Shown here in pieces: positions 51,325 through 64,000 of a DNA stretch of 64,000 bases. Every line of letters starts with the position of its first letter. Positions within the stretch are counted from its first letter, which is position 1. The position numbers and the translations under genes are program-made. Source of the DNA: Tardiphaga robiniae (GTDB lineage: Bacteria > Pseudomonadota > Alphaproteobacteria > Rhizobiales > Xanthobacteraceae); assembly GCF_001618955.1 (NCBI RefSeq), contig NZ_LVYV01000054.1, positions 124,001 through 188,000 on the forward strand, given 5' to 3'. The notes under the pieces are model-generated. The model worked only from the letters and a program-made list of their open reading frames with translations. It was not told the DNA's origin and ran no database searches.

Positions 51325-53124
51325 ATGTATACTTCAGCAAGACCGCCCGCGCTTGCGGACGCTTTCCGCCAGATACGTCCGGGCCTGCTTGCCGCTGGCG
51401 GGCTGTCTATCTTCATAAATCTCTTGGTGTTCGTTTCGCCGCTTTATACGATGCAGATCTACGATCGCGTGCTGACGAGCCGAAACGCGATGACGCTGTT
51501 GCTGCTTTCGCTGATCGCGCTCGCGCTTTTCATCAGTTACGCAGCACTTGAGCACTTTCGCAGCCGCGTTCTCGTGCAAACCGGAATCCGCTTCGACCAT
51601 TTGCTGTCGGGAGAAGCTTTTGAAACGGCTCTCGCGCAGGCGGTGCGCACGGGAAGCTCGCATCATGTTCAGCTGTTGCGCGACGTCGATACATTGCGCG
51701 ATGTTCTGTCCGGCGGCGTGATCACGTCTCTGATGGACGCACCCTGGACTCCGATTTTTCTCGGCATGTGTTTTCTGCTTCATCCATCGATCGGCATGGT
51801 TGCTCTGACAGGCGCGCTGGTCATCCTTGCGCTCGCCTTTCTCAATGAGCGCGCCACCAAAGCGCCGCTGATGGCGGCTTCGTTCAAGAATCTCCACGCT
51901 CTGGACCGATTGACGTCCTCGCTTCGTAACGCGGAAGCGATCCGTGGTCTCGGAATGGGGCCTGCCGTACGCGCCGCCTGGGGCGTCACGCATGGACAGG
52001 CGCTCGTTGAAAGCGCCAAAGCTGGAGAACGCGGCGGAACGCTGCTCGCAATCTCGAAATTTCTGCGGATGGCGATTCAAGTGGCGATTATGGGCGTCGG
52101 GGCCTACCTGGCAATTCATCAGGAGATCTCGGGAGGCGTTCTCTTCGCTGCCTCCCTGATCATGGGGCGTGCGCTGGCACCGGTTGAGGCGGCTGTCGCG
52201 CAATGGAGAGCGTTCGTGTCAGCGCGCACGTCTTTTTCCCGCCTCGACGAAGCTCTGCGGACGCGGGCTACAGAAAGACAACCGACGCGATTGCCGCCCC
52301 CCGTCGGCAACATCTCCGTCGAGGCTTTGACCGTTATGGTGCCTGGATCGCAGTTGGCGGCGATTTCCGATGTCAGTTTCCGGCTGTCACCTGGCGAAGT
52401 TGTTGCGATCGTCGGTGCGTCCGGTTCCGGCAAATCTTCCCTGGCGCGCGCGCTGGTTGGAGCCTGGCCAGCCGCACAGGGTTGCGTACGCGTCGATGGA
52501 AATGACATCCGGCATTTCGAGGCCAGTTTCCTTGGGCAAAGTTTCGGTTACCTGCCGCAGGATGTTGAATTATTCGCCGGGACCGTCCGCGACAACATCG
52601 CTCGCTTTCGTGACGGCGCCTTGGATGAACAGGTTGTCGAGGCGGCGCAACTGGCTTCGGCGCATGCCATGATCCAGCGGCTGCCGCAGGGCTACGACAC
52701 TGTCATCGGGGAAAACGGGGCGGGTCTTTCCGGCGGCCAGCGACAACGCATCGGATTGGCTCGCGCGCTTTTTGGAAGGCCCGTCTTCGTCGTACTCGAT
52801 GAACCAAATGCCAACCTGGACGGCGACGGCGACCGCGCCCTGGCTGATGCCATCCAAATGCTCCGTCAACAGCGCGTAACGATCGTGATCATCAATCACA
52901 GACCCAATCTCCTTTCATTGGTGGACAAGATTGTTTTCATGCATGACGGTCGCGTCGGGCGCGCGGGGACCCGCGAAGAGCTTCTTCCGTTGCTTCTTGG
53001 CGACACGGTCGCTCCCAAGCGCCACGAACCGCGGGTCGCGGCGGAAGGTCACCGAGTTGATCGGGTCTCGCGCCATGCGCCGTTTTCAAATTCGATGCGG
53101 CCTGTCCATGTGACGAGGCAATGA
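51325..53124 (+). CDS. Type I secretion ABC permease/ATPase (PrtD-like)
   Basis: A 599-residue inner-membrane exporter. Transmembrane domain at residues about 20-300 (GLSIFINLLVFVSPLYTMQI, ITSLMDAPWTPIFLGMCFLL); ATPase domain with GASGSGKSS, Q-loop GYLPQDVELFAGTV, signature LSGGQRQRIGLA, Walker B VFVVLDEPNANLD and H-loop INHRP. It has no C39 peptidase domain, so cargo is not cleaved by it. The APWTPIF motif is typical of PrtD/LapB-like exporters. The start MYTSARPP was preferred to a GTG at 51292. It overlaps the adaptor gene by 4 nt. Confidence 0.9.
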   Translation: MYTSARPPALADAFRQIRPGLLAAGGLSIFINLLVFVSPLYTMQIYDRVLTSRNAMTLLLLSLIALALFISYAALEHFRSRVLVQTGIRFDHLLSGEAFETALAQAVRTGSSHHVQLLRDVDTLRDVLSGGVITSLMDAPWTPIFLGMCFLLHPSIGMVALTGALVILALAFLNERATKAPLMAASFKNLHALDRLTSSLRNAEAIRGLGMGPAVRAAWGVTHGQALVESAKAGERGGTLLAISKFLRMAIQVAIMGVGAYLAIHQEISGGVLFAASLIMGRALAPVEAAVAQWRAFVSARTSFSRLDEALRTRATERQPTRLPPPVGNISVEALTVMVPGSQLAAISDVSFRLSPGEVVAIVGASGSGKSSLARALVGAWPAAQGCVRVDGNDIRHFEASFLGQSFGYLPQDVELFAGTVRDNIARFRDGALDEQVVEAAQLASAHAMIQRLPQGYDTVIGENGAGLSGGQRQRIGLARALFGRPVFVVLDEPNANLDGDGDRALADAIQMLRQQRVTIVIINHRPNLLSLVDKIVFMHDGRVGRAGTREELLPLLLGDTVAPKRHEPRVAAEGHRVDRVSRHAPFSNSMRPVHVTRQ

Positions 53125-54608
53125 TGAATATACCCAAGCTGCGAGCAAAGACTGCCCCTCAAGACGAATTGGCGCGCCTCCTCAGGCGTTTGAGCCATGG
53201 CGGTCGCGCGCCTGATGTCCTGCAACGATTCATGGAGATCAAGGCGCAGTCGCTGACCTGGCTATCGAGGGCGTGGCTGTCGATATTCCCGAAGCGCGAC
53301 GCCGGGAACGCAAATGGCGACCCATCGGGCGATTGGCGAACTCCGGCGAGACGGGGCTTTGGTATCGTGTTCCTGACCTTCGTAGTGTTTGGTGGTTGGG
53401 CTGGCCTGGCCTCCATCGATGGTGCCGTCGTGGCTGCAGGCTCGATCGTCGTCGAGAGCGACCGTAAATCCGTTCAGCACCTGGAAGGTGGCATCGTCCA
53501 AAGCCTGATGGTGAGGGGCGACGCGCATGTCGAACAGGGACAGGTGCTGTTGCGACTCGATCCAACGCAGGACCGGGCACGGGAGGAGATGGCGCGTTCG
53601 GCCGTGTATTCGGCAATCGCGGAAGAGGCGCGCCTGCTTGCGGAAGCCGATGGGGCCGATACGATCACGTTTCCATCCGAACTGACGCAGAAGGCCTCCG
53701 ATCCCTCTGCGCAGCGTGCCATGGGCGACCAGAAGCGGCGGTTCGAGGAACGCCGCGTCGCGCGAAAGATCGAGGTTTCGATCCTTGAAGAGAAGATCGG
53801 ACAGGCGCAGCGCCAGATCCAGGGAAACGCTGCGCAAAGCAAGGCTGCACGCGCGCAGTTCGACAGCATGGCGCAGGAATATACCAAGCTCAAGCCGCTC
53901 GCCGACCAGGGGATCGTTCCGTTCGCGCGGATTGCGACTCTGGAGCGTTCCAAATCCGACCTTGAGGGCCGAATTGGTTCATACGACGCCGACATCGCGC
54001 GCTTCGGACGGATCATCGACGAAGCACGGTTACAGATCAATCAGGTCGGGCAGAAAGTTCTGGAGGAAGCCACCGGTAAGCTTGCCGACACCCGCGCTCA
54101 GCTCGCCGACGCGCGCGAGAAGCTGCGCATGGCCGCAGACGTTCTCGGTCGGATGGACGTTCGCGCATCTCGCTCCGGACGTATCGTCAATCTGAAAGTC
54201 CACACGGTCGGCGCGGTGATCAAGCCGGGCGACGTCTTGATGGAGATCGTGCCGGACAACGACGTCCTCGTGGTTGCCGCGAAAATATCCTCTCTCGACG
54301 TCAATCACGTACAAATCGGCATGCCCACGGAAGTTCGGCTTCCCTCGTTCAAGGCTCGCTCGACGCCGATCGCCATCGGCGAGGTTCTCTCGGTGGCAGC
54401 CGATGCGCTTCGCGACGAAGCCACGCACCAGCCTTACTATGAAGTCAAAGTTTCAGTACAAGTGACAAAATTTCCCGACAAAATTCGCGAGAAGCTCAAA
54501 CCCGGCATGATGGCCGACGTCCTGATCGCGACTGGTGAACGCACCGTTCTTGCCTATCTCATGCAACCGATGACCGATGCGATACGGCGTGGCATGCGGG
54601 AGGACTAA
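53121..54608 (+). CDS. HlyD/PrtE-family type I secretion periplasmic adaptor
   Basis: A 495-residue membrane-fusion protein: cytoplasmic N-tail of about 75 residues, one helix (GFGIVFLTFVVFGGWAGLAS), lipoyl-like half IVVESDRKSVQHLEGGIVQS, a long alpha-helical hairpin rich in Ala/Gln/Arg, second lipoyl half RASRSGRIVNLKVHTVGAVI and a beta domain to YEVKVSVQ. It links the ABC exporter to a TolC-like outer-membrane channel. No tolC gene is in the window, so the channel must be encoded elsewhere. Confidence 0.9.
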   Translation: MMNIPKLRAKTAPQDELARLLRRLSHGGRAPDVLQRFMEIKAQSLTWLSRAWLSIFPKRDAGNANGDPSGDWRTPARRGFGIVFLTFVVFGGWAGLASIDGAVVAAGSIVVESDRKSVQHLEGGIVQSLMVRGDAHVEQGQVLLRLDPTQDRAREEMARSAVYSAIAEEARLLAEADGADTITFPSELTQKASDPSAQRAMGDQKRRFEERRVARKIEVSILEEKIGQAQRQIQGNAAQSKAARAQFDSMAQEYTKLKPLADQGIVPFARIATLERSKSDLEGRIGSYDADIARFGRIIDEARLQINQVGQKVLEEATGKLADTRAQLADAREKLRMAADVLGRMDVRASRSGRIVNLKVHTVGAVIKPGDVLMEIVPDNDVLVVAAKISSLDVNHVQIGMPTEVRLPSFKARSTPIAIGEVLSVAADALRDEATHQPYYEVKVSVQVTKFPDKIREKLKPGMMADVLIATGERTVLAYLMQPMTDAIRRGMRED

Positions 54609-54789: not shown

Positions 54790-55410
54790 TCAGGGCGCGG
54801 GCCAGTTGCATGCTGTCGCTATCTTGCGTCGGACTGAATCCAAGCCGACCAATTGAAACGTACTTTCATATGGCAGACCTTTCCCAACGCGGACCTTAAC
54901 GAGAAGTTGGCTGCCCTCCGGCATTGAGCGGAGCAAGCGAACAACGTCGCCTGGAAAGGCAAGACCTTTCCCCGTTTCTAAAGCCCGCCAGCGCTGTTCA
55001 ACAACTGGCTCTTCGTTGATCCGGTGCGCGACCTTCACCTCGCCATCCGGGACCTGCTTCCAGGATCCCGTTGTGGAAATTATCAACTCCGTGCGATGGG
55101 CGCGACAATGGATGGCGAGCGCGGAGGCAGCATTTTGCGACGCCGCGCGCGCTATCATCAGTGCCTCAATCTGCGGCTGATAATCCACCGGCGAGGTCGT
55201 CTCGCTGATGATCCAGTTCGGACTTTGAGACAACGCGGTATCGGGGGTTTCAGCCATCTCCCCCAACAGCTCGTCGACGCATTTCAATCGCTCCATACCT
55301 TCAAACTGTGAGCAAATCTTCAGACGATCGATGGCGCCACCGGTTTGAGCAAACACCGCCTGGCTCAGAGCTAAGAGCACAGTCAGACCGAGAGCACCCA
55401 CATCCTTCAT
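54790..55410 (-). CDS. Exported VasI/TagO-like protein
   Basis: 206 residues with a Sec signal (ALGLTVLLALSQAVFAQTGG). The mature part begins with a Cys pair in CSQFEGMERLKCVDELLGEM, then IHCRAHRTELIISTTGSW, HRINEEPVVEQRWRALETG, PEGSQLLVKVRVGKGLPYES, and ends IATACNWPAP. This order (CxxxxxxxRLxCxD, RTELxI, RWxxxxxGxxxxFPG, SRLLV) resembles VasI/TagO of type VI secretion loci. No other T6SS gene is in the window, so a different envelope role is likely. Its start overlaps the stop of the gene upstream. Confidence 0.68.
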   Translation of the reverse strand: MKDVGALGLTVLLALSQAVFAQTGGAIDRLKICSQFEGMERLKCVDELLGEMAETPDTALSQSPNWIISETTSPVDYQPQIEALMIARAASQNAASALAIHCRAHRTELIISTTGSWKQVPDGEVKVAHRINEEPVVEQRWRALETGKGLAFPGDVVRLLRSMPEGSQLLVKVRVGKGLPYESTFQLVGLDSVRRKIATACNWPAP

Positions 55411-56429
55411 TGGGATCGTCCCGCTGTTACGGCTTGCGGAAGATCAAGCCATTCCTGCGCCGGCTTAAACCGGCTGAGACTCGGCACGCTGGCGCGCAGG
55501 TTGACCTCTTTCCATTTCGGATCGAAACCGGGGGACTGCAACCGGTCGAGGCGACTAAACAGGTGATCTACAAGGCGCGCCACGCGCCGGTATCGGTCGG
55601 ACTGTTGTGGCCAGTTGTAGGCCGCAAGGATGGTGGGGACTGCAATCGTCGCTATCCGCTCACCCTTCGGCACCAGACTCGGATAGTCCGTCGCGTCGAT
55701 AGACGAAGGAAGATAGTAGTCCTCAAATTTGGCGCCGTATTCGACTGCGAGGAACCTAAATCCGGGATCCCAGCGTCCCTTCAGAAAAGCGTCGACGGGC
55801 TTTGACGTCACAAACACAACGGCTGCGATTTCTCCGCGCTTCATTTGCTCCAATGCTACCTGGTGCGGAATGAACATCTTTTCCACGTTTAGTCCCAGCC
55901 GGCTGAAGATCAGCGGACCGGAATAGGCGGCTGCCGTACCTTGCGTATTGAAATTCACCTTTTTGCCCTTGAGATCTTCGAGCGACCGGATCTCGGGGCG
56001 GACGAATATGTGCAGTTCGGACGGAAAGAGGCTCAGAACGTAGACGATGCGCCGTTCGATAGACGGGACTTGAGCTCTATATTCGTCAAGAGCATCCGTG
56101 TTGATGATCGCCGCATCAACGCCTCTAAGATACAGCAGCGAATTGACGTTTTCCGTTGCTCCGCGCGTCACGATCGGGAGGACGTGAAGCTTATCCTCCT
56201 CGTTTACGACGCGAGCGATCTCTGCTGCGAGACGAAGCGGAGCCCCTTCAATGAGCCCGCCGGCGAGGCCGACAGTCCATGCATTGATGCGCTCTTTCGC
56301 GGCCGTTTCGGTCCTTTTCACCGCCGCCATAGCCTGCGTCTCGCGCGTCGGGAGAGATTGGGCATTGGCGGCCAGTTGCAGCCCGAACGCCGCTAATGCC
56401 ATAGCAAATGAGAACTTGATGAGCGACAT
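55407..56429 (-). CDS. TAXI-family periplasmic solute-binding protein
   Basis: A 340-residue protein with a signal peptide (MSLIKFSFAMALAAFGLQLA, cleavage near NAQS). TAXI-like features: INAWTVGLAGGLIEGAPLRL, LHVLPIVTRGATENVNSLLY, DAAIINTDALDEYRA and LEDLKGKKVNFNTQGTAAAY. TAXI proteins normally feed TRAP transporters, but no TRAP permease is encoded nearby, so this may be an orphan binding or sensing protein. The start MSLIKF was preferred to a frame reaching 56456. It is coupled by overlap to the VasI-like gene. Confidence 0.82.
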   Translation of the reverse strand: MSLIKFSFAMALAAFGLQLAANAQSLPTRETQAMAAVKRTETAAKERINAWTVGLAGGLIEGAPLRLAAEIARVVNEEDKLHVLPIVTRGATENVNSLLYLRGVDAAIINTDALDEYRAQVPSIERRIVYVLSLFPSELHIFVRPEIRSLEDLKGKKVNFNTQGTAAAYSGPLIFSRLGLNVEKMFIPHQVALEQMKRGEIAAVVFVTSKPVDAFLKGRWDPGFRFLAVEYGAKFEDYYLPSSIDATDYPSLVPKGERIATIAVPTILAAYNWPQQSDRYRRVARLVDHLFSRLDRLQSPGFDPKWKEVNLRASVPSLSRFKPAQEWLDLPQAVTAGRSQ

Positions 56430-56477
56430 GCGAGTCTCCATTCTCGGAATGACCATCTACGCGTCACGAGCTGGCTG

Positions 56478-58983: not shown

Positions 58984-61713
58984 TCAGGAACAGGACGACG
59001 TGATCGCTCGTTCGATGACCGGTCGGTTGACGGTCAAATGCGGGTCGATAACGAGATCGAGATGGCCGCCAGCAATCGGAATAACCTCCAGTTTTGCAAA
59101 CAGAGAGTCCCATCCGAGGTGTGCTGGTGACCCTCGCCGGTTGCAAAGGAATAGCGTTCCGGTAATTGGCAAGCGAGGTTTGGCACTCGCCACCCAGCGG
59201 CCGAATTCCTGCATCCGGAGAATCTCCTCAAGCTCCAACTTGAGCATGAAGCGGGTGCCGGCCAGGTGCGTCCAGATCCTCGCATCGAGAATTCGGCAGA
59301 ACTTCACCTCCCAGTGAAGTCGAGCAACACATTTTGCGATAGCGCGACACAGCATTCGGTACATCGTAACCCGGTGTGATCTAACTCGCTGCAGCGTACG
59401 TGACAGGGTCTCCCGATAGTCACTCCTGCGGGGGCCGATATTCGTGTCAAGAATGCCCAGAAATTTCACCGACCGGCCTTCCGCAATCAGCCGGGCTGCC
59501 ACTTCAAATGCGACGCCGCCACCCAGTGAATAACCGATTAGACGTATGTCGCCGCGGGGATGAACGGCGTTGATCTGTTCCAGCGCCAACGTCGCCATGT
59601 GGTCAACCGAACCGCATCCAGTCAGGGCGGACGTCAGATCCGGGTAACGGATCGGGATCACGTGAGCCGTCTTGCTCAGCTGTGCCCCGAACGCCGCCAG
59701 ACTCGGGCCGTAACCTATCGAGCCCGGCAACATCACCAGATGAGGCAGGAGTTCCCCGGCGACTTGTTGCCGCTGCGACCGGCCACCTGCAGCGACGATC
59801 TGAATCATATCGGCTGCGCTCATGTCCACCGTGAAGGCTTCCATGTTGAGCTCTTGGCCAACCAGCTCTTCCAGCTCCATCACGCATCGCAGAAGCTTGA
59901 GGGAATCGCCACCTGCCTCGTCCCAGCGGCTGGCAACGTCGGTCGTACCTAGGATCCGCGTCCATACCTGCGCCACCATTTTTTCGGCTTGCTTCACTTC
60001 ACCCGCCCCTGGGGGCTGAGGTGGGCCTGGACCTCTTCGGCTCTCGGTATCCAGCACCTTGAGTTTCGCGACGTCTATCTTTCCGCCGGCGAGGCGCGGA
60101 AGCTCTGCGATTTCATGCAATCTGGTGGGATGCAATGCGGTCGGAAGCGTCTGCCTGATAACGTCCCGAACGTCAGCCGTGAATGTTGCCTTGGCCTCGA
60201 CACCTGGCGATGCAAAAATAATCAGCTCGCTTGAATCGGTGACGATGGCGACGGCGTCGCTCACATAGGGAATTCTGCGTACAACAACCTCGAGTTCAGC
60301 CGGTTCGACACGCCGTCCATTGATTTTGAGCTGACGCCCCTTTCGTCCCAGCATCTGCATCAATCCGCGCGCATCAACAGTAACAAGGTCGCCTGTCGGG
60401 AAGATGCGGCAGCGGTCGTCATCCGGGTCAGGTAATGCAGGGAGCACCTGACCGTTCTCCCAGTAGCCAAGCAGCACATGCACGCCCTTGATGATCAGCT
60501 CCCCAACCTCGCCGGTGGGCACAGGCACTCCGTTGTCGTCGACGACGGCAAACGACATTCCGGGAAGCAAATAGCCAACCGGGGGTATGCTGAAATCGCC
60601 TTCTTTGCAGTCGTCGGGAAGAAACCACTGCGTGCCGGTGGTTTCGGTCGACGAATAGCTGATCTGAATGAAGCAGGAGGGCTTCACGACCTTTCGGACG
60701 AGTGCGACATCCGTCCACAACACCTTCTCGCCGCCGATGCGGACAACCCGAAGCGATTCGAAATCACCGGTATCACTCGCGGCAACCACTGCCCGCAGGA
60801 GAGCGGGAACGATATACGTGATCGTTATCTGCTGCGATCGGATCTGACGCAACACGCCGCGAAGGCCAAGGGCCTCGACATCCGCCATATGCAATCTTGC
60901 GCCGGTCAACAAGGCCGTGAGCATCTCTCTGGTGCCCGCAATGGTCGTAGGGCCGCTCAGAGGCATGAAGACGTCAGTGGCGTCTATGTGGCATGCATCC
61001 GCATATTGCTGGACGCGCTGGAGCAAGCTGCGTTGGCTATTCACAACACCCTTTGGCTGTCCGGTGCTGCCCGAGGTGTAGAGCACGAGGGCAGGTGCAT
61101 CTACCGAGATCGACTCAAGCGATGCGGTATCGCCGGAAAATTCGTTGGCGCGCGTAATATCGATCCAGCGCAGGCCGTCTTCATCGATCCATTTGGTCGA
61201 GCTACTGTCGCCCTGGCCGATCAGTACAGAAATCTGCGCATTTGCAACGATGTGGGCAAGTCGCTGATCCGGATCGCGCGGATTGAGCGGCACCAAGGGG
61301 CGCCCTGCGGCCATACATGCAAGCATGGCGATCGGATGCCAGATCGAGTGGCGCAACAACAGGCCGACGGCTCGCCCTTCGGGAGTCACCGCTGCAATCG
61401 CCCGGGCCAGCGTCAGAACTCTGATCAGAAAATCCGAATATGTGATTTGGCGGGTGTCGTCGCTGATGGCTACGTTGTTCGGAAATCTCCTTGCCACCGC
61501 ATCCAGATGCGTAATCGCGGGCACGCCGGCAAATTCACCCCCCATACGATTGAACGGGCGATCGACAGGCCCGCCCACGTCAAGGGGCAATTCGGGGGGG
61601 GGCATCCAGAGGGCTTCTGCAGGCTCCCTTAAATCTCCGGAAAGTGCGCGCCCGCCAGCGAACGTCTTCGCGCGTTTCGCCAAGGATCCATCGGGAAATC
61701 TCTGAAGTTGCAT
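58984..61713 (-). CDS. NRPS-like adenylation-carrier-thioesterase protein
   Basis: 909 residues from ATG 61713 (a GTG at 61752 is possible). Adenylation domain at about 60-570: LYTSGSTGQPKGVVNSQ, YSSTETTGTQW, PTGDLVTVDARG, GRKGRQLKINGRRVEPAE, and the catalytic Lys in LAGGKIDVAKL. Carrier domain about 600-670 with phosphopantetheine Ser in WDEAGGDSLKLLR. Thioesterase about 680-905 with GYSLGGGVAFE, Asp in GILDTNIGP and His in AGGHLDLVIDP. There is no condensation domain, so it would adenylate, load and release one substrate. The Asp that holds the substrate amine in amino-acid-activating domains aligns with Ile in my hand alignment, suggesting a non-amino-acid substrate. It lies downstream of the kinase-flippase gene on the same strand. 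Confidence 0.85.
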   Translation of the reverse strand: MQLQRFPDGSLAKRAKTFAGGRALSGDLREPAEALWMPPPELPLDVGGPVDRPFNRMGGEFAGVPAITHLDAVARRFPNNVAISDDTRQITYSDFLIRVLTLARAIAAVTPEGRAVGLLLRHSIWHPIAMLACMAAGRPLVPLNPRDPDQRLAHIVANAQISVLIGQGDSSSTKWIDEDGLRWIDITRANEFSGDTASLESISVDAPALVLYTSGSTGQPKGVVNSQRSLLQRVQQYADACHIDATDVFMPLSGPTTIAGTREMLTALLTGARLHMADVEALGLRGVLRQIRSQQITITYIVPALLRAVVAASDTGDFESLRVVRIGGEKVLWTDVALVRKVVKPSCFIQISYSSTETTGTQWFLPDDCKEGDFSIPPVGYLLPGMSFAVVDDNGVPVPTGEVGELIIKGVHVLLGYWENGQVLPALPDPDDDRCRIFPTGDLVTVDARGLMQMLGRKGRQLKINGRRVEPAELEVVVRRIPYVSDAVAIVTDSSELIIFASPGVEAKATFTADVRDVIRQTLPTALHPTRLHEIAELPRLAGGKIDVAKLKVLDTESRRGPGPPQPPGAGEVKQAEKMVAQVWTRILGTTDVASRWDEAGGDSLKLLRCVMELEELVGQELNMEAFTVDMSAADMIQIVAAGGRSQRQQVAGELLPHLVMLPGSIGYGPSLAAFGAQLSKTAHVIPIRYPDLTSALTGCGSVDHMATLALEQINAVHPRGDIRLIGYSLGGGVAFEVAARLIAEGRSVKFLGILDTNIGPRRSDYRETLSRTLQRVRSHRVTMYRMLCRAIAKCVARLHWEVKFCRILDARIWTHLAGTRFMLKLELEEILRMQEFGRWVASAKPRLPITGTLFLCNRRGSPAHLGWDSLFAKLEVIPIAGGHLDLVIDPHLTVNRPVIERAITSSCS

Positions 61714-61825
61714 GACGGTACTCACCGTTGCGGGATGGAGATCGTAGGCCACACGTCGGCTATTGACGTCCTTCGAGTGAATGATAGGGCTGCACCAATT
61801 TTCCTGCCTCTATCCAATTACCAGG

Positions 61826-63991
61826 CTATTCGGCGGCGGCGGGCCGACGAAACTCCACAAAGGCAAAGAGCAGACCGGCCGTCATGTTCACGCGTTTGTA
61901 GATGTAGATCGCCATTGCCGTGTTCCAGGCCACATTCGTCACGGCCGTCGCAACGGCGGCACCCATCACGCCAAAGAAAGCAATGCCGATCGCACAGGCG
62001 ACGACGTTCATGACGGCTCCGATCGCCGTGATTGCGGCTGCTGCCCGCTCATGCCCTGTCATGGTCAGAAGATTTTGCTGCGGACCAGTAGCAGCAGCAA
62101 AGATCTGTCCGACGACGAGAATTTGGGCGACCGGAGCTGTTGCAACGAATTCCTCGCCGAAAAAGCGGAGTAGCGGTACCGTCAGCAACAAAAGTGGAAG
62201 TGCCAGCACGACTGTTCCAGCCAGCGACAGGACAGTTGCTCGGGCAAACAGACTCTGAAGCGCTGCCTCATTCCGATGAGCGTGAAGCTTCGAGACGTTT
62301 GGCGAAAAGAACGTCCCTACTGCCATACGCGGGAGAACAAGAAAAAGAGCTAAATTCAACCCCAGTGCGAAGATGCCGGCCTCGTGGGCATCGCCGGTCC
62401 AGCCGAGGATAATCACGCCGGCGCGGCTCATGAGAACCTCAACTCCAATCAAGATCATGACAGGACAGGCAAGATGCCACCAATCGCGGGGCGCATAAGC
62501 CGGCACCGCCGAGCGTAGTTGTGGCGGCCAAAGCTTCCGCATGCTCAGTCCAACGATGGCCGCTGTGACGGCAGAGCTTGCCATCAAAGCGATCAAAACC
62601 GTTGTCGCATCGATTGGCGTGACGTTGAGTGCCACGGCAAGCAGAAGCAGCACAACCATAAGGCCGTCCCGAACGAAGCGTTCGGGCGCAATTGCCGAAA
62701 TGACGCCACCCAGCGCGCGTACCGTGGCAGAACCGAGAACGTAAAGCGCTACCAATGGGACGGTCGCCATGCCAACCGCCAGACTGACAGTCAGCTCCCG
62801 ATGAAGCGTCTCCGACAGGAATAGTGCGATGGCGACTCCGCAGATCGCAATCAACATCCCAACCAACAATGATCGTCCGAATGCAAATTGAATGACTCCG
62901 CGCGCCAATGGCCACTTTCCGGTCGCGCTATAGGCCGGCACATATCGCAGCAGAACCGTGTTGAACCCGAGTCCCGCGATGTAGGAGAGAAGGGTCGTCC
63001 AGGCCAGGACGTATGAGTAGATGCCGTAACTCGTCGCTCCTATCGTACGGGCAATGACAAGTTGAGCTACGCACGTCAGCCCGGCGCCGCCAACATAGAT
63101 AACGAATGCCCACAGGCTTGCGCTGGCCATGCGCCGAGCCAGCTCGGGTTGAGCCTGAGCTGTGAAAGTTCCGATCGTCTCGGGCGCCGGCAAAGGTGGC
63201 GTGAACTTCTCCGCACAGCGCTCAAAGCTGTCGTCCCCTGCCCCAGGTGACAAACCGACCGCTCCGTCGGGCCTGAACTTGCTGGAGACTTCCTCTTCGA
63301 TACGATCGAGAGCCTTGGACATCAGGCCGGGATCGAGCGAGTTGATGCAGATCATCTGTTGATGCTCGGCCGCGAGCAGCGAGCCAACGTAGTCAGTAAT
63401 CGGCTTTGCCTTGAGAAAGGTACCTACATCGGGTTCGAACCATTTCTCCATGTACGTTTTCTGGCGTACTCGCTCATGGAGGCGCTGCTCCAACAATTCC
63501 GCCGGAGCATCAAAGCGGATCAGCAGATCTGATCGCGTCCTCATACCGATTGCATGAGCGATCGTCTTCTCGTCTGCTCGGCTAAACAGAGCCAAGGTGC
63601 AAACGATCTGCACAAAGCCCTGGTCGAACAAGACGATGCGATCGGGCTTGTGCGAATCTCTCCATATGCAGGAAAACCGGACGACGTATTGGCTAAGCCT
63701 GATCCACCAGACGGGATTGCTGGGTGGCATCAGTCGGAGCAAATCCTTCGCCAGACGCAGCCCTCGGGCATTTGCGACAGGACGGCACAAGATTGCGATG
63801 GTGGCGAAGATCGCAAGAGTGACGCGCTGCAGCGCTGGAAGAAATCCACCAAAGTTTAGAAGATGATTGGATAGATGCGGCAACGTAAGTACGAGGTCGA
63901 CTTCATACCCACGGTCACGCAGGCGTTGAGCGAGTGCCTCACTAAAGGTTGTTTTGCCAGCGCCTGGTGGACCGAAAGTCTCGATAATCAT
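61826..63991 (-). CDS. P-loop kinase-like domain fused to a polysaccharide flippase (Wzx/MATE-like)
   Basis: 721 residues. Residues 1-240 form a P-loop kinase-like domain: Walker A GPPGAGKTTFSEALA, a Walker B-like DRIVLFDQG, and LLIRFDAPAELLEQRLHER resembling the lid region of nucleotide or small-molecule kinases. After a hydrophilic linker (about 240-285), residues 285-715 are a 12-14 helix oligosaccharide exporter of the MOP superfamily (VAQLVIARTIGATSYGIYSY, LGFNTVLLRYVPAYSATGKW, FFGVMGAAVATAVTNVAWNT). The start has GAGGG nine bases upstream. Fusion of a kinase domain to a flippase is unusual. The NRPS-like gene follows after about 110 bp, suggesting a joint role in making and exporting a modified glycan or lipid-linked product. 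Confidence 0.83.
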   Translation of the reverse strand: MIIETFGPPGAGKTTFSEALAQRLRDRGYEVDLVLTLPHLSNHLLNFGGFLPALQRVTLAIFATIAILCRPVANARGLRLAKDLLRLMPPSNPVWWIRLSQYVVRFSCIWRDSHKPDRIVLFDQGFVQIVCTLALFSRADEKTIAHAIGMRTRSDLLIRFDAPAELLEQRLHERVRQKTYMEKWFEPDVGTFLKAKPITDYVGSLLAAEHQQMICINSLDPGLMSKALDRIEEEVSSKFRPDGAVGLSPGAGDDSFERCAEKFTPPLPAPETIGTFTAQAQPELARRMASASLWAFVIYVGGAGLTCVAQLVIARTIGATSYGIYSYVLAWTTLLSYIAGLGFNTVLLRYVPAYSATGKWPLARGVIQFAFGRSLLVGMLIAICGVAIALFLSETLHRELTVSLAVGMATVPLVALYVLGSATVRALGGVISAIAPERFVRDGLMVVLLLLAVALNVTPIDATTVLIALMASSAVTAAIVGLSMRKLWPPQLRSAVPAYAPRDWWHLACPVMILIGVEVLMSRAGVIILGWTGDAHEAGIFALGLNLALFLVLPRMAVGTFFSPNVSKLHAHRNEAALQSLFARATVLSLAGTVVLALPLLLLTVPLLRFFGEEFVATAPVAQILVVGQIFAAATGPQQNLLTMTGHERAAAAITAIGAVMNVVACAIGIAFFGVMGAAVATAVTNVAWNTAMAIYIYKRVNMTAGLLFAFVEFRRPAAAE

Positions 63992-64000
63992 GCTGCCCTC

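Follow-up and report, generated by a model that had tools for sequence, protein, structure and literature searches.

The window analysed here, a stretch of 64,000 nucleotides of Tardiphaga robiniae (contig NZ_LVYV01000054.1, positions 124,001 to 188,000), ends in two minus-strand genes. One encodes a fusion of a P-loop kinase with a polysaccharide flippase (P0002, 61826..63991, 721 aa), and the other encodes a protein resembling non-ribosomal peptide synthetases (NRPSs) with adenylation (A), carrier (T) and thioesterase (TE) domains (A-T-TE protein P0001, 58984..61752, 922 aa, GTG start). Both frames are open and intact at these coordinates, which are those of a preliminary description made from the sequence of the window. 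P0002 precedes P0001 with an intergenic gap of 73 bp, or approximately 100 bp should translation actually begin at the GTG of codon 10, so that the strand, order, short gap and domain content described previously were all borne out. Orthologues of both genes are 93–96% identical and keep the same order, and the frames are therefore not due to chance; the A-T-TE protein of T. robiniae LMG 26467 is 96% identical to P0001. A weak scan, which found 1 site in the region against 4.8 expected by chance, placed no terminator-like site between the two genes.

The gene run containing P0002 and P0001

The minus-strand run continues past 64000, where the Wzc-like gene ends within the window (63999..64000, minus strand), up to 78005 in extended coordinates. 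The 14 kb read completes a run of 13 genes, of which P0002 and P0001 are the last. In transcription order, it encodes an NTP transferase, a DegT aminotransferase, a phosphoglycosyltransferase (PGT), a LegB-like dehydratase of the short-chain dehydrogenase/reductase type, a beta-propeller-like protein, a Wza-like export protein, a LuxR-like regulator, a family 4 glycosyltransferase (GT4), a Wzy_C protein, an AsnB-type amidotransferase, a Wzc-like protein, P0002 and P0001. The labels of the beta-propeller-like protein and the LuxR-like regulator, neither of which has a Pfam match, are our own reading. The PGT matches PF02397 (E = 3e-47) and classifies as an initiating PGT, and the Wzy protein matches PF04932 with 45.7 bits (cut-off 31.7), a model that cannot separate ligase from polymerase. 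For the putative Wza and Wzc proteins, Poly_export PF02563 and AAA_31 were matched, and Wzz PF02706 reached 22.4 bits, below its cut-off of 25.5. The AsnB protein begins with MCGI, including the glutaminase Cys2, matches PF00733 (E = 1e-116) and has the domains of a WbpS-type uronamide synthase. No acetyltransferase domain was among the Pfam matches of the run. Nine of the 12 gaps within the run measure −58 to 11 bp, including those from GT4 to P0002 (−4, 3, 11 and 7 bp), and gaps of 370 and 170 bp flank the LuxR-like gene.

P0001 and P0002 thus almost certainly belong, as its tail, to a Wzx/Wzy-type exopolysaccharide gene run. The glycan export setting and the further genes beyond the window edge suspected in the preliminary description were supported, and the extension past 64000 in search of a glycosyltransferase or a polymerase yielded the GT4 and Wzy_C proteins.

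Domains and substrate pocket of P0001

P0001 is composed of an A domain (60058..61503, minus strand, approximately residues 84–565), a T domain (59785..60006, minus strand, approximately residues 583–656) and a type I TE domain (58993..59751, minus strand, approximately residues 668–920). AMP-binding PF00501 (E = 3e-64, residues 84–431) and Thioesterase PF00975 (E = 7e-16, residues 671–771) were recognised by Pfam. The T domain has no Pfam match and was assigned by its motif and a structural match. The motif, GGDSL with Ser617, is identical in all 30 aligned sequences, in which Lys558 of the A domain, Ser617 and the TE residues Ser742, Asp769 and His897 are all conserved. The predicted structure (mean pLDDT 69.5) best matched SrfA-C (E = 2e-44) and EntF (E = 2e-43) with a TM score by query of 0.37, and the domains are therefore placed differently. 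With an A-T-TE order and no condensation domain, P0001 has the architecture of a non-reducing NRPS-like enzyme, the T domain in this order resting on motif and fold in place of a Pfam match.

The pocket of the A domain is formed by Ile271, Ala272, Arg275 and Tyr313. In HMMER alignments with the peptide synthetase chain 8xjz and LgrA, Ile271 aligns with Asp235 of GrsA and Arg275 with position 239, in the GrsA numbering. Ile271, Ala272 and Arg275 are invariant in the alignment of 30 sequences, which extends to identities as low as 32%, and 29 of the sequences keep Tyr313. The A domain of P0001 thus lacks the Asp that binds the alpha-amino group and has Ile at position 235 in 30/30, which argues for a substrate acid with no alpha-amino group, in line with the unusual acid proposed previously. 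An anionic or polar side of this acid is perhaps held by Arg275. We know of no specificity code that matches the pocket I-A-R-Y.

The kinase–flippase fusion P0002

The P-loop kinase domain of P0002 (63272..63991, minus strand, residues 1–240) has a thymidylate-kinase-like fold and the motif GPPGAGKTT. It is followed by a MOP-type flippase domain (61832..63145, minus strand, approximately residues 283–720; PF01943 and PF01554). The match to Polysacc_synt PF01943 (E = 3e-11, 43.6 bits, cut-off 28.2, residues 293–549) classifies P0002 as a Wzx-type flippase, and P0002 is likely the Wzx of the run. In Pfam, the P-loop part matches AAA_33 below threshold (24.9 bits, cut-off 27). The best structural match of residues 1–240 was chain 4qgh_B (E = 1.6e-5, TM score by target 0.66, root-mean-square deviation 6.4). 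Because the model of P0002 is poor (mean pLDDT 43.8), with modest confidence in residues 1–240 and poor confidence in the flippase part, the fold reading is limited to residues 1–240. Assignment of these residues to the thymidylate kinase family PF02223 was rejected, since no match was found at E 0.001 despite the similar fold, and a sequence search of the PDB with P0002 gave no match.

Of the loci read, 14 encode kinase and flippase in a single gene and nine encode them in two adjoining genes, kinase first (G358, G038, G343, G150, G087, G258, G680, G751 and G290; the flippase frame of G087 contains a stop). The same two domains being both adjacent and fused argues, on this genomic pattern, that they act together. 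Upstream of the split genes, a protein with weak NTP_transf_5-like (19.3 bits, cut-off 31.2) and kinase-like parts was found in six of the nine loci. Two more P-loop kinase genes, 41% and 28% identical to the kinase half of P0002, were observed on contig C12 of the same genome (L067:9674-13898).

Distribution of the two genes

Searches of the family and the order were made on even draws of 391 and 397 genomes, respectively. Within the genus, five of 18 genomes have P0001, and the same five have P0002 and the NadE-like gene described below; in the other 13, all three were unmatched at the limits used. Nine genomes of the family have P0001 and nine have the full-length fusion, in each case at 50% identity or more, and six have both (Fisher 1e-9, kinship ignored); G193 has an A-T-TE copy of 34% identity. 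The proposed conservation of the pair thus stands as far as co-occurrence beyond chance is concerned, but each gene also occurs without the other. In genus g25, three genomes contain P0001 but not the fusion, and three others the fusion but not P0001. From the grouping of G335, G268 and G195 with named Bradyrhizobium loci in the tree, we infer that g25 is Bradyrhizobium. The A-T-TE profile matched 14/397 genomes of the order, and a class-wide search found A-T-TE in two of 357 genomes, that of the window and G778, the sole one outside the order.

A-T-TE genes of this clade lie beside a gene run in 23 distinct loci from four families of one order, namely five of Tardiphaga, G045, nine of Bradyrhizobium (G335, G268, G195 and six named) and eight of other families. 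This count excludes the sister-clade copies (G012 C21, G694 C7, G599 and G618), the second copies of G597, whose open frame covers only the A part, and of G268, the copies of G193, G712 and G778, and five plasmid matches. The tree comprised 30 sequences: the 23, the four sister-clade copies, the second copy of G268, and those of G193 and G712. In tblastn searches with bit limits that we chose, GT4, Wzy, AsnB and Wzc were present in 23/23 loci. AsnB was found in four of eight similar runs without A-T-TE, compared with all 23 with A-T-TE (Fisher p = 0.002, kinship ignored); the eight exclude G343, at a contig end, and G290, which has diverged. Outside these loci, the A-T-TE gene of G712 (35%) lies near a polysaccharide deacetylase, GT4 and a Wzy_C protein.

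The P0002-type flippase was found in 14 of the 23 loci, and in nine of the 23 it lies directly before A-T-TE on the same strand, the flippase of G597 being without the kinase part. All nine adjacent pairs end the larger gene run. In G680, an OafA-like acyltransferase lies between the flippase and A-T-TE, and in G694, G529, G464 and G751 the two are at opposite ends of the run. At nine of the 23 loci, all of Bradyrhizobium, no P0002-type flippase was found, and a looser search detected only flippases of 26–29% identity elsewhere in those genomes. In the three of the nine that were read far enough upstream (G335, G268 and G195), the same locus contains another Wzx. The flippases beside an A-T-TE are of at least three kinds, mutually unmatched by blastp: the P0002 type in 14 loci, a second in G335, G268, G195 and Mesorhizobium japonicum pMLb, and a third in G193 (PF01943 at its cut-off). 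The Wzx-FkbM-GT2 trio beside A-T-TE on pMLb is 62, 70 and 67% identical to the trio of Bradyrhizobium G335, G268 and G195.

The view that the two genes form a unit of their own therefore did not hold, given the Bradyrhizobium loci and the three g25 genomes with the fusion only. Neither are the two consistently close: the constant partners of A-T-TE are GT4, Wzy, AsnB and Wzc.

In the metagenome-assembled genome RYN_492, a short second match to the C-terminus of A-T-TE (residues 885–917, 82%) was observed right behind the gene (L017:13008-13106), possibly a partial duplication.

A second acyl cassette

In G335, G268 and G195, the locus also contains, further upstream, a second cassette in the order thioesterase, NadE-like, AsnB, AMP ligase and carrier. 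The carrier was detected by tblastn in G268 and G195, and the lone thioesterase of the three is 48–49% identical to residues 669–922 of P0001. The NadE-like protein matches NF002048 with 487 bits, and the AMP ligase is nearest to the XrtA ligase TIGR03098. A full A-T-TE lies beside the cassette in G012, G694, G599 and G618 (in G012, the genes are at two contig ends and not joined), and these four A-T-TEs branch separately from the 23 as a clade of their own, with a support of 100/100. According to public annotation, the plasmid of Mesorhizobium sp. AR07 repeats this order, with an A-T-TE match (53%, not listed as a gene) followed by nadE, asnB, an AMP-binding protein, an acyl carrier protein and a methyltransferase. 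A PrmC-like methyltransferase (TIGR03534, 177 bits, cut-off 199) is also near in several loci.

The NadE-like gene is present in 16/391 family genomes, including all nine with A-T-TE at 50% or more (Fisher 2e-14, kinship ignored), and in 19/23 genomes with A-T-TE beside the run. It had no match at E 1e-60 in G680, G529, G464 and G751, and the cassette was thus rejected as an obligatory partner of A-T-TE. The second cassette is a frequent companion of A-T-TE.

In the genome of the window, the cassette lies on contig C2, another contig than the run (L066:4710-10519; acyl carrier protein, ligase, AsnB2 and NadE-like), together with a decayed A-T-TE that has stayed open in its thioesterase part only. 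The counterpart of this decayed A-T-TE is a 379-aa open frame in G003 and G017. Proteins of approximately 370–398 aa lie beside the cassette in several genera (L118:9189-10301 and L115:9678-10793), and that of L118 has no Pfam or NCBIfam match.

Discussion

Gene content, gene order, conservation and catalytic residues were observed directly in this study. Considering these, we propose, with a probability of approximately 0.55, that A-T-TE serves a Wzx/Wzy-type exopolysaccharide gene set as its acyl-loading enzyme and acylates the lipid-linked repeat unit, acylation of a glycan being the most sensible role, as suggested in the preliminary description. In this scenario, the first sugar genes (LegB-like, DegT and PGT) would provide an NDP-4-amino-4,6-dideoxy sugar and place it onto undecaprenyl phosphate. 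The A domain would adenylate a carboxylic acid without an alpha-amino group and load it onto its own carrier, and the TE domain may pass the acyl group at the inner face to the lipid-linked repeat unit, onto one of its amines or hydroxyls, before flipping, with the 4-amino group as the obvious candidate acceptor. The flippase half of P0002 would then move the unit across the membrane for Wzy, and the kinase half may phosphorylate a partner, for which the glycan and its lipid are candidates. The probable task of the second cassette, which in several loci is joined by the PrmC-like methyltransferase, is to build or amidate a related acyl group. A bolder form, an NRPS-type/polysaccharide hybrid in which A-T-TE and the amide-forming cassette together acylate each lipid-linked unit and the kinase of P0002 gates export by phosphorylating the unit or its lipid ahead of or in the course of flipping, is speculative and appears unlikely.

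Several points weigh against acyl loading for the exopolysaccharide. The same kind of sugar genes occurs without A-T-TE in G307, G358 and G150, and A-T-TE copies lie away from glycan genes in G268 (the second copy, 50%) and G778 (38%). On plasmid pUSDA76 of Bradyrhizobium elkanii USDA 76, the A-T-TE gene (48%, L155:14881-17616) lies in an insertion-sequence-rich region, with no glycan genes in an incomplete gene table. Given the gaps around the LuxR-like gene, the run could comprise two transcription units. The TE domain could merely hydrolyse the thioester, the kinase half is without a known partner, and the substrate, the acceptor, the transfer by TE and the role of the kinase are steps that we infer, as is the transfer of an acyl group onto the glycan.

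Among other explanations, A-T-TE may be one station of a longer carrier pathway with the second cassette, in which TE would edit acyl groups or shift them from carrier to carrier, with the completed group ending up on the polymer. The NadE-like gene accompanies A-T-TE in the nine family genomes and in most of the genomes with the run, and an A-T-TE of the sister clade or a lone TE sits in the cassette itself, likewise on the AR07 plasmid. However, the four genomes with A-T-TE by the run but no NadE-like match, and the location of the cassette on another contig in the genome of the window, speak against this pathway, which has a minor chance of being correct. Alternatively, A-T-TE may condense two acids into a small diffusible product and be merely co-expressed with the polysaccharide genes. 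The A-T-TE architecture is that of fungal and Streptomyces non-reducing NRPS-like enzymes acting on aromatic keto acids, and the copies on pUSDA76 and at the second locus of G268 are away from glycan genes. According to excerpts of PMC9047271, those enzymes use alpha-keto acids, with which the absence of Asp235 is compatible, allowing but not showing such a substrate. However, 23 loci in four families keep A-T-TE beside the same four glycan genes, and a lone TE replaces A-T-TE beside the cassette in G335, G268 and G195, which is harder to fit to a self-contained condensing enzyme; we regard a small product as rather improbable. A self-standing pair of kinase–flippase and A-T-TE, acylating a lipid or exporting a small acyl product, agrees with the nine loci in which the flippase directly precedes A-T-TE and with the co-occurrence of both genes in the family. 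It is largely refuted by the loci holding one gene without the other and by the adjacent pairs all ending a larger run, and is thus very improbable.

In comparison with known systems, alphaproteobacterial Wzx/Wzy exopolysaccharide sets have the same PGT, GT4, Wzy, Wzc-like, Wza-like and MOP flippase genes in one run, but here the run includes an NRPS-like A-T-TE gene and a flippase with a P-loop kinase fused to it. A term search in the text of a review on rhizobial exopolysaccharide synthesis (PMC5748678) found no mention of ribosomal peptide, adenylation, thioesterase, acyl carrier or asparagine synth. The XrtA/PEP-CTERM loci are also similar, in that the AsnB of the run matches TIGR03108 with 553 bits (cut-off 817) and the ligase of the cassette matches TIGR03098 with 487 bits (cut-off 592), but here an A-T-TE protein occurs besides or instead of a separate ligase and carrier. 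XrtA (TIGR03109) was not matched in the genome of the window (0/1 at E 0.001), in a search where 14 control genomes were also below the cut-off and which thus had no positive control. Membership in an XrtA system was rejected on the AsnB score and the lack of an XrtA match.

The non-reducing NRPS-like enzymes AcyN and EchA, and the quinone and furanone synthetases, as described in parts of PMC9047271, have the same domain order without a condensation domain and are comparable by architecture, whereas P0001 lies among polysaccharide genes. The lincosamide synthetase uses NRPS components to link an acid with an amino sugar (excerpts of PMC4351081); there, the acid is an amino acid and a separate protein is expected to carry out the condensation, whereas P0001 lacks Asp235 and has only TE at hand. 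A WbpS-type AsnB protein of Porphyromonas converts a sugar uronate to a uronamide, and the Wbp/Vim linking sugar (WbpS, VimA/VimE) similarly combines an AsnB-type amidotransferase by wzx with an N-acylated amino sugar, but no NRPS-like enzyme is named in the excerpts of that source (PMC7468200). Among the matches listed by searches of open-licence papers, not all of these searches being aimed at this pair, neither NRPS-like acyl loading among exopolysaccharide genes nor a kinase-coupled Wzx was found. The parts are thus of known kinds (Wzx/Wzy sets, A-T-TE enzymes and NRPS joining of acids to amino sugars), whereas their combination in one gene set and the kinase–Wzx fusion were not found among those matches.

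If an NRPS-like enzyme indeed decorates the polymer, a wider set of acids could be placed on bacterial glycans, and genome mining may misfile these genes as secondary metabolism. Exopolysaccharides of rhizobia matter for legume symbiosis. To our knowledge, what drives or regulates flipping by Wzx is an open question, on which a kinase fused to Wzx would offer a handle.

Genes neighbouring the run

Type I secretion genes (HlyD and PrsD-like) and a 538-aa protein without a Pfam match (53121-54608 of the window and L015:17135-22285) adjoin the locus in many relatives among those read. Also conserved next to the run are two proteins encoded at 54790-56456 of the window, one a TAXI-family TRAP solute-binding protein (47.5 bits, cut-off 84) and the other VasI-like (PF11319, 28.5 bits).

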